Shown here piece after piece: positions 2,514-32,670 of a stretch of 55,388 nucleotides of DNA. Within the stretch, counting starts at the first letter, position 1; the number at the start of each line of letters is the position of its first letter. The notes below the pieces were generated by a model. The model made no database searches. It was not told where the DNA came from and was given only the letters and a program-made list of their open reading frames with translations. The DNA comes from Methanoregula sp. GTDB lineage: Archaea > Halobacteriota > Methanomicrobia > Methanomicrobiales > Methanospirillaceae. Where the stretch lies: contig JAPKXX010000040.1 of NCBI GenBank assembly GCA_026394595.1, positions 1 to 55,388 of the forward strand. Reading direction: 5' to 3'. The position numbers and the translations under genes were made by a program.

Positions 2514-2830
2514 TTGAGCTCAGCGATCTCATTGTCGATCCAGTCCTGGATGACCAGTTTCATCTGTTTTATTGTGATGCCGGGCGCGTTGCGCACACGG
2601 ATCTCCACCTCAAGGAGGTCAAGGATTGGTGTAACGGTGGTAAAATAATCATCGATGCAGTTCAGGCCCCCTCCTTTTTTGATGTGGAGCATGACGAACT
2701 CGTTGAGGTGCTCAAATTCACCGGTGACATCGACAATTGCCTCAAGGGTCATTGTACCAGGTTCACTGACCAAGCATTTGTCGTTGGCAAGAGCCTTGCC
2801 ATCATCGTTTACATCGGTTGGAGGCTGCAT
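2510..2830 (-). CDS. Hypothetical protein, about 106 aa
   Basis: The frame gives a well-composed acidic protein with a regular mixed alpha/beta pattern (TMTLEAIVDVTGEFEHLNEF, then ITIKQMKLVIQDWIDNEIAEL), unlike the opposing plus-strand frame, which is cysteine- and histidine-rich and looks like a shadow. The start is uncertain: ATG at 2830 has a weak GGGGACC upstream, and an internal ATG at residue 27 would give an 80-aa protein. Its stop overlaps the ATG of the decayed frame downstream, suggesting a former two-gene operon. I do not recognise a family. Confidence 0.5.
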   Translation of the reverse strand: MQPPTDVNDDGKALANDKCLVSEPGTMTLEAIVDVTGEFEHLNEFVMLHIKKGGGLNCIDDYFTTVTPILDLLEVEIRVRNAPGITIKQMKLVIQDWIDNEIAELK

Positions 2831-3016
2831 GGCATCAGCACTGGTTGTAAGGTCCCCGGCCTTTCATATGGCGTACAGTATCGTACAACTCCTGGCATAC
2901 ACACCGGAACTTATGGACACTTTAAAAAAACAGTCTGTTGGTGTGGCATAAATAGGTGATTACACCGCTGTTAGACCGGATTTATCGTATCGAAAAAAAA
3001 AAATTATGACAGGTCA

Positions 3017-3712
3017 TTATTTTCCCGATGTCTCTTTTGGCTTTGGTAAAAATGGAATAATCGAAGCGGCTATCTTTGCGATGTCCATGGACTGGAGCAC
3101 GACCTTACCCGGCCCGGTGAGCGTGGTCACAAAAAGACCTTCCCCGCCAAAGATAATCGAGCTGATCCCCCCGGCAAGTGCGATATCATAGCTAACCGTA
3201 CTCTCGAAACCTACTACAAGTCCGGTCTGCACCTTGACCATCTCACCTTCCTTCAGGGTGATCTCAACAATATCCCCGCAGCAGTGCAGAAACACGGTGC
3301 CAGCACCACTCATGTTCTGGAGGATGAAACCCTCACCGCCAAATAACCCGCTCCGGATCTTTTTGGTGAACGTGATATCCAATACTACACCCTCTTCGCA
3401 GCACAGGAATGAGTCTCGCTGGGTGACAAACTCGTTGCCGGCAGCAAGTCTTACCGGAAAAATTTTTCCCGGCACATTGCCCGCAAACGAGACGAAGCCG
3501 GGAGAAGCAGCCGGGGAAAATTTTGTTAAAAAAAGGCTCTCCCCGGTGAGGACTCGTTTTATCCCTGAGAGAATTCCGCCTTTGAGCTGGGACTCCATCT
3601 GCATATGCCCGCTCATGTTCACCATTGCTCCCGCTTCGGCAAGGAGCCCTTCACCGGTATCGAGCTCGACTTTCACCATCTGGAGGTTGTCACCTATGAT
3701 CTCATACTTCAT
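3017..3712 (-). CDS. AIM24 / TIGR00266 family protein
   Basis: The 231-aa protein begins MKYEIIGDNLQMVKVELDTG and continues with LLAEAGAMVNMSG, GGILSGIKRVLTGESLF and a glycine-rich repeat-like core, all typical of the TIGR00266/AIM24 (DUF124) family. These proteins fold as a beta-rich trimeric barrel; the mitochondrial member Aim24 helps organise the inner membrane, but the archaeal role is unknown. Length is normal. The start has GAGG six bases upstream. No operon partner is evident; the next minus-strand gene ends 52 bp upstream. Confidence 0.85.
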   Translation of the reverse strand: MKYEIIGDNLQMVKVELDTGEGLLAEAGAMVNMSGHMQMESQLKGGILSGIKRVLTGESLFLTKFSPAASPGFVSFAGNVPGKIFPVRLAAGNEFVTQRDSFLCCEEGVVLDITFTKKIRSGLFGGEGFILQNMSGAGTVFLHCCGDIVEITLKEGEMVKVQTGLVVGFESTVSYDIALAGGISSIIFGGEGLFVTTLTGPGKVVLQSMDIAKIAASIIPFLPKPKETSGK

Positions 3713-30123: not shown

Positions 30124-31284
30124 TTATCCTACCCATTCGAGCAGTCCGCCGCCACTTGGCTGGTCGCGGCTCTTCCTGGCCTGCGGCATCTCAACTGCTT
30201 TTGGGTTTGCCCTCTTGTTCTCAATATCTTGGATGACGGTCTTATACGACTGTCGGGTGCCGAGGATCTGGGCGCTCTTTACACCGGTCATGATTGCAAG
30301 GACGCGGATCTTGCCCTCCATATCGTTCCTGACACGTGCCCCCCAGATGACATCTGCATGCGGGTCGAGCTCGTAGGTGAGTGATGTCGCGACCTCTTCT
30401 GCATCCTGCAGGGTAAGATCGGTGCCACCCGTGATATGGATCAGGCTGCCGGTTGCACCACGGTAATCGATATCAAGCATCGGGTTACTCAGGCACTCAC
30501 GGACAACGCTTTCAGCCTTGTTCTGCTGCTTGCTCTCTCCCACGAGCATCACAGCGACGCCCCCCTTGCTCATAATCGCGCGGACATCTGCATAGTCAAT
30601 GTTGATCAGCGACGGTTCGGTGATCGTCTCAGAAATGCCCTTGACTGTCTCCCCGATAAGCTGGTCCATGACCGAGAATGCCTGCCCAAGCGGGAGGTTC
30701 GGGACAAAGTTCTTGAGCCGGTTGTTATCCAGGACAATCACGGAGTCTGCTGCGGAAGCGAGTGCCTCAAGACCCTCTTCTGCACGGATAAGGCGCGCCT
30801 TTTCAACCTGGAACGGGTAACTGACCATGCCCACAACAATTGCGCCCTGCTCTTTTGCGACCTGTGCAACAACCGGTGCCGCACCGGTACCGGTACCGCC
30901 ACCCATACCAGCGGTGATGAAACAGAGGTCAGCGGATTCGAGCAGCGCCTCAAGCGTGGGTCGTGCCATTTCGGCAGCCCGTTTCCCGACGTCGGGATAT
31001 CCTCCTGCACCCAGTCCTTTGGTGAGGGATTTTCCGATAAGAACACGTTTGTCAGCCTGCACCATGTCAAGGTGCTGCTTGTCCGTGTTGATCGCAATTG
31101 TCTCAGCACCGGCGACACCCATGTGGTGGATCCGGTTTACGGTGTTGTTACCGGCGCCGCCAACACCGATGATCACGATTCTCGGCTGTCCGACAAAATC
31201 GTCTTCCATTGCATTTGCACCGGGTTTGTTGCTCTCTCTCTCGAGTTCTGCGTTTTTTAGCGCATCGTTAATTATGCTCTGCAT
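30124..31284 (-). CDS. ftsZ: Cell division GTPase FtsZ (FtsZ1-like)
   Basis: The 386-aa protein is a complete archaeal Fts[15 protein letters not shown] (about 39-52), INTDKQHL, the tubulin signature GGGTGTG (128-134), VLDNNRL and the T7-loop [12 protein letters not shown] for GTP hydrolysis between monomers. The N-terminal extension and overall motifs look closest to the FtsZ1 group. It forms the division ring. The start ATG 31284 has GAGGG before it and lies 10 bp after the RHH gene, so the two form an operon. Confidence 0.96.
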
Positions 31285-31294
31285 GTCTACCCTC

Positions 31295-31474
31295 TCATAC
31301 CTTGAATGAAACCTGGTCACTGTCTTTCAAGACACGGTTGGCACGTTTTTCCACAAGCTCACGGACGGCAGCCCTTACTGCTTCAGATACATTGGGGTAT
31401 TCCCCCGCGTCCACCATGTGCTGGAGGAGGCTGATCTGTTGTTCCGGGAGCCGTAGTGTGATCCGTTGCATCAT
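31295..31474 (-). CDS. Ribbon-helix-helix regulator upstream of ftsZ (CdrS-like)
   Basis: This 59-aa gene reads [20 protein letters not shown] followed by the helical [21 protein letters not shown] beta strand (QRITLRLP) and two helices make the MetJ/CopG ribbon-helix-helix fold. In haloarchaea a small RHH protein, CdrS, is encoded with ftsZ and controls division genes; the position and size here suggest an equivalent role, which is inference. The stop lies 10 bp before ftsZ. Operator-like repeats lie directly upstream. Confidence 0.88.
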
Positions 31475-31488
31475 CGTATCTCACATTT

Positions 31489-31548
31489 CTGACATATGTC
31501 AGTCATCTGTCATTCATATGTCAGACAGAGAGAATCCTTGTGTCTGAC
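31489..31548. promoter_or_regulatory. Phased operator array before the RHH-ftsZ operon
   Basis: The word TGTC(A/T)G occurs at 31497, 31519 and 31541, exactly 22 bp apart (two helical turns). The first lies in a perfect palindrome CTGACATATGTCAG (31489-31502), the second repeats CATATGTCAG (31515-31524) with a CTGTCA half-site at 31507, and the third is TGTCTGAC. The array starts 15 bp upstream of the RHH start codon. Such spacing fits cooperative binding of an RHH protein on one face of DNA, probably autoregulation. Confidence 0.7.
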
Positions 31549-31671
31549 TTAACCAGATGAATCAAAATATCACATTAATGTATAAAAACTTTCTTCTTTG
31601 CAAACCCAGCTCCCACAAAACGCATTTATGGCTTCCCATGCAACAAACTGGGTAATTATAGGGTTTTGTTC

Positions 31672-32670
31672 ATGGCTGTTCCGTACAAAAAAAAGGTAAT
31701 CCATGGGGGGTGCGGAAAGCGGCAGCATGAAAAAACCCAAAATAATGTGCTGGATTTCAGCGCGAGTGTTAATCCCCTCCCGCCCGTTGTGTCATGGCAC
31801 TGCGATCCGTTCTTTCTAAAACATTACCCGGACGATACCTACACCCAGCTCAAAGAGACCATTGCGCGTACGTTCAACCGGAATACCGAAGAGATCTGTG
31901 TCGGCAACGGATCAATAGAACTCATCCGGGTTTTCTGCAATATTGTTTTCAAGGAGCGCCATACGTTTTATGTGGACACTCCCACCTTCGGTGAGTACGA
32001 GTTTTCCGCCAGGCTTGCCGGTGCAGAGAGAGTCACCAGTATGAAAGGGGCCGAAGCCAGTTTTATCTGCAACCCGAACAACCCCACAGGAACCCTGCGA
32101 ACACATGCGGATATGCTTGCCCTGCTTGACGAGACCGAATCGCTCAACGGGGTTCTCTGCGTAGATGAGGCGTTCATCGAACTATCAGATCCTTCCCAGA
32201 GCCTCATCGATCAACAAAGTGATCACTGTATCCTGCTGCGTTCCCTCACCAAATGCTACTCTGTTCCAGGCATCAGGTTCGGGTACGGTTTTTCCCATCC
32301 GGACCTTATTGAGGAGATGGAGGCGGTGCGTCCGCCATGGAGCGTGAATGCCTATGCTGAAGCCTTTGCACTCCAGGCATTCGCTCACTACGATGAACTG
32401 GAGCAGTCAAGAAGGCTGGTTGAACGGGAGCGGTTATGGCTTTCAGAACACCTTTCAGCGCTGGGCCTGCACGGTAGCCCCTCATCAGCAAACTTCCTGC
32501 TTGTTGATACAGGACGCCGTGCAGAAGACCTGTGCAGGGACCTTGAAAAGCTTGACATCCTGGTTCGGGACTGCACATCGTTTGGTCTCCCCACCTCAAT
32601 TCGTGTGGCGGTCAGGACGCGGGATGAGAACCGGGTGCTGGTGGAGGCACTGGCCGTATGCTTGCACTGA
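31672..32670 (+). CDS. cobD: Aminotransferase-fold PLP enzyme, probable threonine-phosphate decarboxylase CobD
   Basis: The 332-aa protein is a class I/II PLP enzyme: GNGSIELI, the CNPNNPTG motif, VDEAFIEL and the PLP lysine in LRSLTKCYSVPGIRFGYG. Its fold is shared by histidinol-phosphate aminotransferase and CobD. CobD is preferred because the next gene, overlapping by 13 bp, is cobY; CobD would make (R)-1-amino-2-propanol phosphate, the linker of cobamides. ATG 31672 is used; an upstream TTG adds two residues. The HisC alternative cannot be excluded from sequence alone. Confidence 0.8.
   Translation: MAVPYKKKVIHGGCGKRQHEKTQNNVLDFSASVNPLPPVVSWHCDPFFLKHYPDDTYTQLKETIARTFNRNTEEICVGNGSIELIRVFCNIVFKERHTFYVDTPTFGEYEFSARLAGAERVTSMKGAEASFICNPNNPTGTLRTHADMLALLDETESLNGVLCVDEAFIELSDPSQSLIDQQSDHCILLRSLTKCYSVPGIRFGYGFSHPDLIEEMEAVRPPWSVNAYAEAFALQAFAHYDELEQSRRLVERERLWLSEHLSALGLHGSPSSANFLLVDTGRRAEDLCRDLEKLDILVRDCTSFGLPTSIRVAVRTRDENRVLVEALAVCLH

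Follow-up and report, generated by a model that had tools for sequence, protein, structure and literature searches.

The stretch of DNA that was analysed, here called the window, is 55,388 nucleotides long and carries on its reverse strand a small ribbon-helix-helix (RHH) gene directly ahead of ftsZ. The RHH gene (31295 to 31474, 59 amino acids, Pfam RHH_1 with an E-value of 2.9e-8) has its conserved start at the second methionine, at 31471. The ftsZ gene (30124 to about 31284, Pfam Tubulin and FtsZ_C, TIGR00065 with 414 bits) probably starts at 31284 (MQSII...), some 10 nt past the RHH stop codon, and both proteins are probably made from one mRNA. By similarity this FtsZ is of the FtsZ2 type: compared with nine haloarchaeal genomes, it is 63-66% identical to the closer FtsZ (FtsZ2) and 43-46% identical to FtsZ1, and a separate FtsZ1 is encoded in its own genome. 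Divergent from the operon stands an aminotransferase class I/II gene (31675 to 32670, forward strand, Pfam Aminotran_1_2). The probable TATA box of the operon is a TTTATA within GTTTTTATACATT (31581 to 31586, reverse strand). A TATA-like box is found in the 110 promoters of the order that were compared, upstream of the first slot of the array described below by a median of 38 bp, and transcription in the window, judged by the TATA spacing only, would start at about 31558.

From a biochemical perspective, the product of the RHH gene is a single RHH domain scoring above the Pfam cut-off of RHH_1. Its AlphaFold model (pLDDT 83) has an extended N-terminal segment and then two helices, and with this model Foldseek returned solely the RHH folds of ParD and NikR, with weak E-values. 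The beta-strand residues R, T and R of the motif MxRITI/LRLP are invariant among the orthologues and are also present in the haloarchaeal CdrS homologues. Against NCBIfam NF058555, the equivalog of haloarchaeal CdrS, the protein reaches 68.3 bits (E 4.1e-19), below the cut-off of 100; since this model is specific to haloarchaea and its cut-off is not reached, the protein is called CdrS-like and not a member of the equivalog. The identity of CdrL, a larger haloarchaeal RHH protein with a double zinc ribbon, was also considered and ruled out, because the 59-residue window protein has RHH_1 alone. Its sequence features mark it as a CdrS-type RHH protein paired with an FtsZ2-type FtsZ, as in Haloferax volcanii and Halobacterium salinarum, where a small RHH gene likewise lies directly ahead of an FtsZ2-type ftsZ. 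The cdrS-ftsZ2 pair has already been reported across archaea, including Methanomicrobia, together with the presence of CdrL at the haloarchaeal promoter (PMC7439475). In the order Methanomicrobiales, 113 of the 121 genomes encode the RHH protein, and ftsZ follows it directly and in the same orientation at all 110 loci examined. In three genomes of one genus (L024, L026 and L027), RHH and ftsZ lie in one frame with a single TAG between them; read-through of this codon would yield an RHH-FtsZ fusion, and the arrangement is not kept in other members of the genus.

The region ahead of the RHH gene contains a lattice of six slots, from 31486 to 31549, whose unit is the 9-bp palindrome TGTCWGACA followed by two A/T-rich bases, 11 bp in all. 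Read on the operon (reverse) strand, slot S1 (AGTCAGACA, 31541 to 31549) has one mismatch to the palindrome, and the inferred transcription start is some 9 bp upstream of it; in the orthologous promoters the slot shows at most one mismatch in 62 of 110 and at most two in 97. Slot S3 (TGTCTGACA, 31519 to 31527) is a perfect site and the best conserved one, with at most one mismatch in 94 and at most two in 105 of the 110. In slot S4 (TGAATGACA, 31508 to 31516), which has two mismatches in the window, a half-site is conserved, and up to two mismatches are seen in 77/110 orthologues; the same threshold is reached by 83/110 for S5 (TGACTGACA, 31497 to 31505, one mismatch) and by 91/110 for S6 (TGTCAGAAA, 31486 to 31494, one mismatch), the operator site closest to the start codon, which begins 15-25 bp ahead of the RHH start in every promoter. 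The remaining slot, S2 (aggattctc, 31530 to 31538), is the sole degenerate one within the lattice: it matches TGTCWGACA in just two of the 110 promoters, yet its own columns are conserved, with the weaker consensus A-R-G-N-W-N-C-T-N. S2 could act as a weak site, or something else could bind there. Among orthologues, S2 reads about AAGCWNCTT or AGGNWNCTC. The original prediction had placed TGTCWG half-sites with inverted partners exactly at 31497, 31519 and 31541 of the forward strand, and there they are; its 22-bp steps also exist, linking slots 1, 3 and 5, but the true period is 11 bp, with further sites at 31486-31494 and 31508-31516 in the gaps. When the 130 bp upstream of the RHH gene in the window were shuffled 5000 times with dinucleotides preserved, no trial equalled the four sites with at most one mismatch found there.

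Conservation upstream of orthologues, on which the same prediction had staked itself, was examined in the upstream regions, and the lattice was found in all 110 promoters, from six families of the order. With at most one mismatch allowed, these regions hold 324 sites, against about 9 expected from shuffles (2.95 per promoter against 0.08); every promoter has at least one site, and 104 of them have two or more, against 0.3 expected. The distances between sites of this quality fall at 11 bp (n=86), 22 bp (n=108), 33 bp (n=79), 44 bp (n=37) and 55 bp (n=33), and any other distance occurs four times or fewer. The 110 loci are related and such counts are not independent events, so that it is the spread over six families that carries the argument. 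This histogram, with its multiples of 11 bp, spaces the palindromic sites evenly along a single face of the DNA, as looked for in an RHH operator filled by tandem dimers. The lattice is anchored to the start codon of the RHH gene and not to the divergent aminotransferase. It is very improbable, then, that the array serves as the operator of the aminotransferase gene and affects ftsZ incidentally: such a role would agree with the conservation of the divergent gene at 110/110 loci, but the distance of the array to the RHH start varies with an SD of 1.8 bp and that to the aminotransferase start with an SD of 27.6 bp, and, seen from the TATA box of the RHH operon, the array is on the side of the RHH gene.

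The same motif occurs in haloarchaea at orthologues of known CdrS targets. For H. volcanii, 18 ChIP-seq sites of CdrS have been mapped, among them ftsZ1, dacZ and threonine ammonia-lyase; its own promoter is not reported as a site, and the 10th nucleotide of the motif serves there as the reference point for its position (PMC8406309), which would suit a motif of 20 bp. Each of the nine haloarchaeal ftsZ1 promoters examined has the paired, 11-bp spaced motif YGTCWGACR-NN-YGTCWGACR, 36-67 bp ahead of the predicted start codon and with 0-3 mismatches (at most two in eight of them), and its scores are matched by shuffles in no more than 1 of 300. A scan of six haloarchaeal genomes gave 12-16 places per genome, against 0-5 with the reversed pattern, and the places with 0-1 mismatch include dacZ (NF041371), threonine ammonia-lyase (in two genomes, by TIGR01127 in one and by evident sequence similarity in the other) and cdrL. 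As judged by the identity of the targets, namely ftsZ1, dacZ and threonine ammonia-lyase, the methanogen array and the CdrS target promoters have a DNA motif in common, and the array motif appears to be the motif of haloarchaeal CdrS targets, a match that is based on common target genes and not on a published logo. FtsZ1 of methanogens was considered as a further target, and the motif was found at 0 of the 6 genes checked. In one haloarchaeal locus (L329, 1452-1520) the paired motif lies in the cdrL promoter, which suggests that CdrS may control CdrL. In three haloarchaeal genomes (L321, L335 and L336) it is found at a gene with a bactofilin domain, possibly halofilin-like, that in two of them is divergent from a DUF5800 gene.

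The sites are lost together with the protein. Among 11 FtsZ2 loci, from three families, in genomes with no or weak RHH matches, none has a clear array upstream, and two keep one degenerate 11-bp pair; in one further genome of the order (G074) both RHH and FtsZ2 are absent. In a genome with an RHH pseudogene (G130), 33% of the site positions and 27% of the flanking ones differ while the TATA region is unchanged, and in two relatives of its genus with an intact RHH gene the site positions differ by 6%; although this is one case and the counts are small, such a direction would be predicted if the RHH protein keeps the sites conserved. Another transcription factor, and not the RHH protein of the operon, could bind the array, just as the RHH protein CdrL binds the cdrS-ftsZ2 promoter in haloarchaea (PMC7439475). 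This is improbable, however, because array and RHH disappear together while FtsZ2 remains, the window's own genome has a single match to the window RHH, CdrL is absent outside haloarchaea according to the same report, and the motif recurs at orthologues of the genes targeted by CdrS in ChIP experiments. Taken with these findings, the prediction that an operator array immediately precedes a CdrS-like RHH gene and its coupled ftsZ is well supported: the array is conserved, it was not seen where ftsZ2 stands without RHH, and its motif occurs at orthologues of mapped CdrS targets.

A second candidate target was found in the window's own genome, where a three-slot 11-bp array (contig C120, locus L111, 2560-2589) lies upstream of a gene (2723-3040) for a protein of 106 amino acids. 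The protein is conserved and all-helical, and searches of Pfam, NCBIfam and PDB gave no usable match, as did Foldseek with a good model. The array is kept in Methanoregula-like genera only: in two genera (g1 and g5), TGTCWGACA is present about 140-161 bp upstream of the gene in 18/18 genomes (the paired motif at about 140-183 bp), with a phased second site in 17 of them, and no site was found in 12 other genomes of the order. Because its position relative to the promoter differs from that in the RHH operon, the regulator may act differently there. The distance also bears on whether the repeats could instead work as RNA, by folding in the 5' leader of the RHH-ftsZ transcript. Going by the TATA position, transcription probably includes the array, and its palindromes are able to form hairpins; nevertheless, a leader role is unlikely for a paired motif about 140-183 bp upstream of this second gene and at haloarchaeal ftsZ1, and strict 11-bp phasing suits one helical turn of DNA, so that an RNA function is the most remote of the readings weighed here.

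Outside the order, the comparison covered 20 RHH-ftsZ2 loci in further families belonging to the phylum. Most of the non-halophile loci have similar arrays, often with a period of 11 bp and sometimes of 10 or 12 bp, and in some families the variants TGTCCGACA or TGTCGGACA are found. Haloarchaeal loci, by contrast, carry GTAAGAC/GTCTTAC elements in place of the array at the RHH-ftsZ2 promoter, where H. volcanii CdrS is not reported; five families (f13, f17, f20, f22 and f26) were called haloarchaeal because the members examined have acidic proteins, CdrL and the DacZ equivalog typical of haloarchaea. In haloarchaea the circuit appears to be rewired, so that CdrL acts at cdrS-ftsZ2 while ftsZ1 is under CdrS, and the arrival of cdrL after the split from the methanogens has been proposed before (PMC7439475). 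There is an even chance that methanogens keep the ancestral circuit, in which a CdrS-type RHH acts on its own ftsZ2 through an 11-bp lattice, and that in haloarchaea the ftsZ2 promoter passed to CdrL and the CdrS code to ftsZ1, cdrL and other genes.

The reading preferred here, at a probability of roughly 0.8, is that the CdrS-like RHH protein encoded in the operon has its operator in this array, which it would bind cooperatively, with negative autoregulation of the ftsZ2 operon as the result. Cell division would probably come under its control as well. One RHH dimer would sit on each TGTCWGACA, with its beta-sheet (strand residues R, T and R) in the major groove; dimers 11 bp apart, that is one turn of DNA, would lie on the same face of the helix and could cooperate over the five good slots. 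A/T-rich linkers would separate neighbouring dimers as in AmrZ, a bacterial RHH protein that represses its own gene, activates elsewhere and reads the A/T-rich linker between half-sites (PMC3325190). Adjacent half-sites are likewise bound by RHH dimers in AmrZ, Arc and comparable repressors of bacteria or phages, although their sequences and targets are different, and a multi-slot lattice was not found for them in the literature searched. Occupancy of the lattice is expected to block initiation or escape, and the resulting feedback would hold the dosage of RHH and FtsZ2 steady, the protein measuring its own dose and that of FtsZ2. While autoregulation of the operon by its RHH protein is likely, its sign is probably negative, a proposal prompted by the extent of the lattice, which begins just past the inferred transcription start and ends some 10 bp short of the start codon.

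The negative sign is not given by homology, as haloarchaeal CdrS is mainly an activator (PMC7439475, PMC8406309). The protein might thus bind the array and activate its own operon in a positive feedback, in line with the 1.3- to 2.2-fold decrease of ftsZ2 upon deletion of CdrS in H. salinarum (PMC7439475) and with the decrease of ftsZ1 upon CdrS depletion in H. volcanii (PMC8406309). Such activation is unlikely here: upstream sites, as in haloarchaea, suit activation, and of the 18 mapped H. volcanii sites 15 are found 41-110 nt ahead of a start site (PMC8406309), whereas in the window both the TATA box and the inferred start are upstream of the sites. Outside FtsZ-based division, an archaeal RHH regulator of a cell-division gene is known in aCcr1 of Sulfolobales, which acts on cdvA of the ESCRT-type machinery (PMC7617429).

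The open-licence literature gave no operator motif for the RHH-ftsZ operons of methanogens, and neither the operator lattice, its phylum-wide conservation, the prediction of feedback in methanogens nor the comparison of motif positions between the two groups was met with in the literature searched. The array offers a concrete, phylum-wide candidate binding code for a CdrS-type division regulator and, with testable targets named, a prediction that FtsZ2 dosage in methanogens is under feedback control; genomes with ftsZ2 and without RHH are natural null backgrounds for testing it. If the ancestral circuit described above is real, it would amount to a documented case in which an archaeal cell-division network was rewired between methanogens and halophiles while its binding code hardly changed.

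In the genome-wide pattern search, paired sites were found in 89 of the 121 genomes of the order, and the reversed-pattern control was near zero. Matches confined to single genomes (for example L113 and L123 to L128) were taken as chance, being inside genes or not recurring. A sequence like GGTCAGGCARGTGTCTGACA recurs at several places in Methanoregula genomes (G001, G004 and G005) and is possibly a dispersed repeat. Finally, in one genome (G023) an array of two to three slots lies ahead of an archaeal histone gene (L120, 2510-2541).
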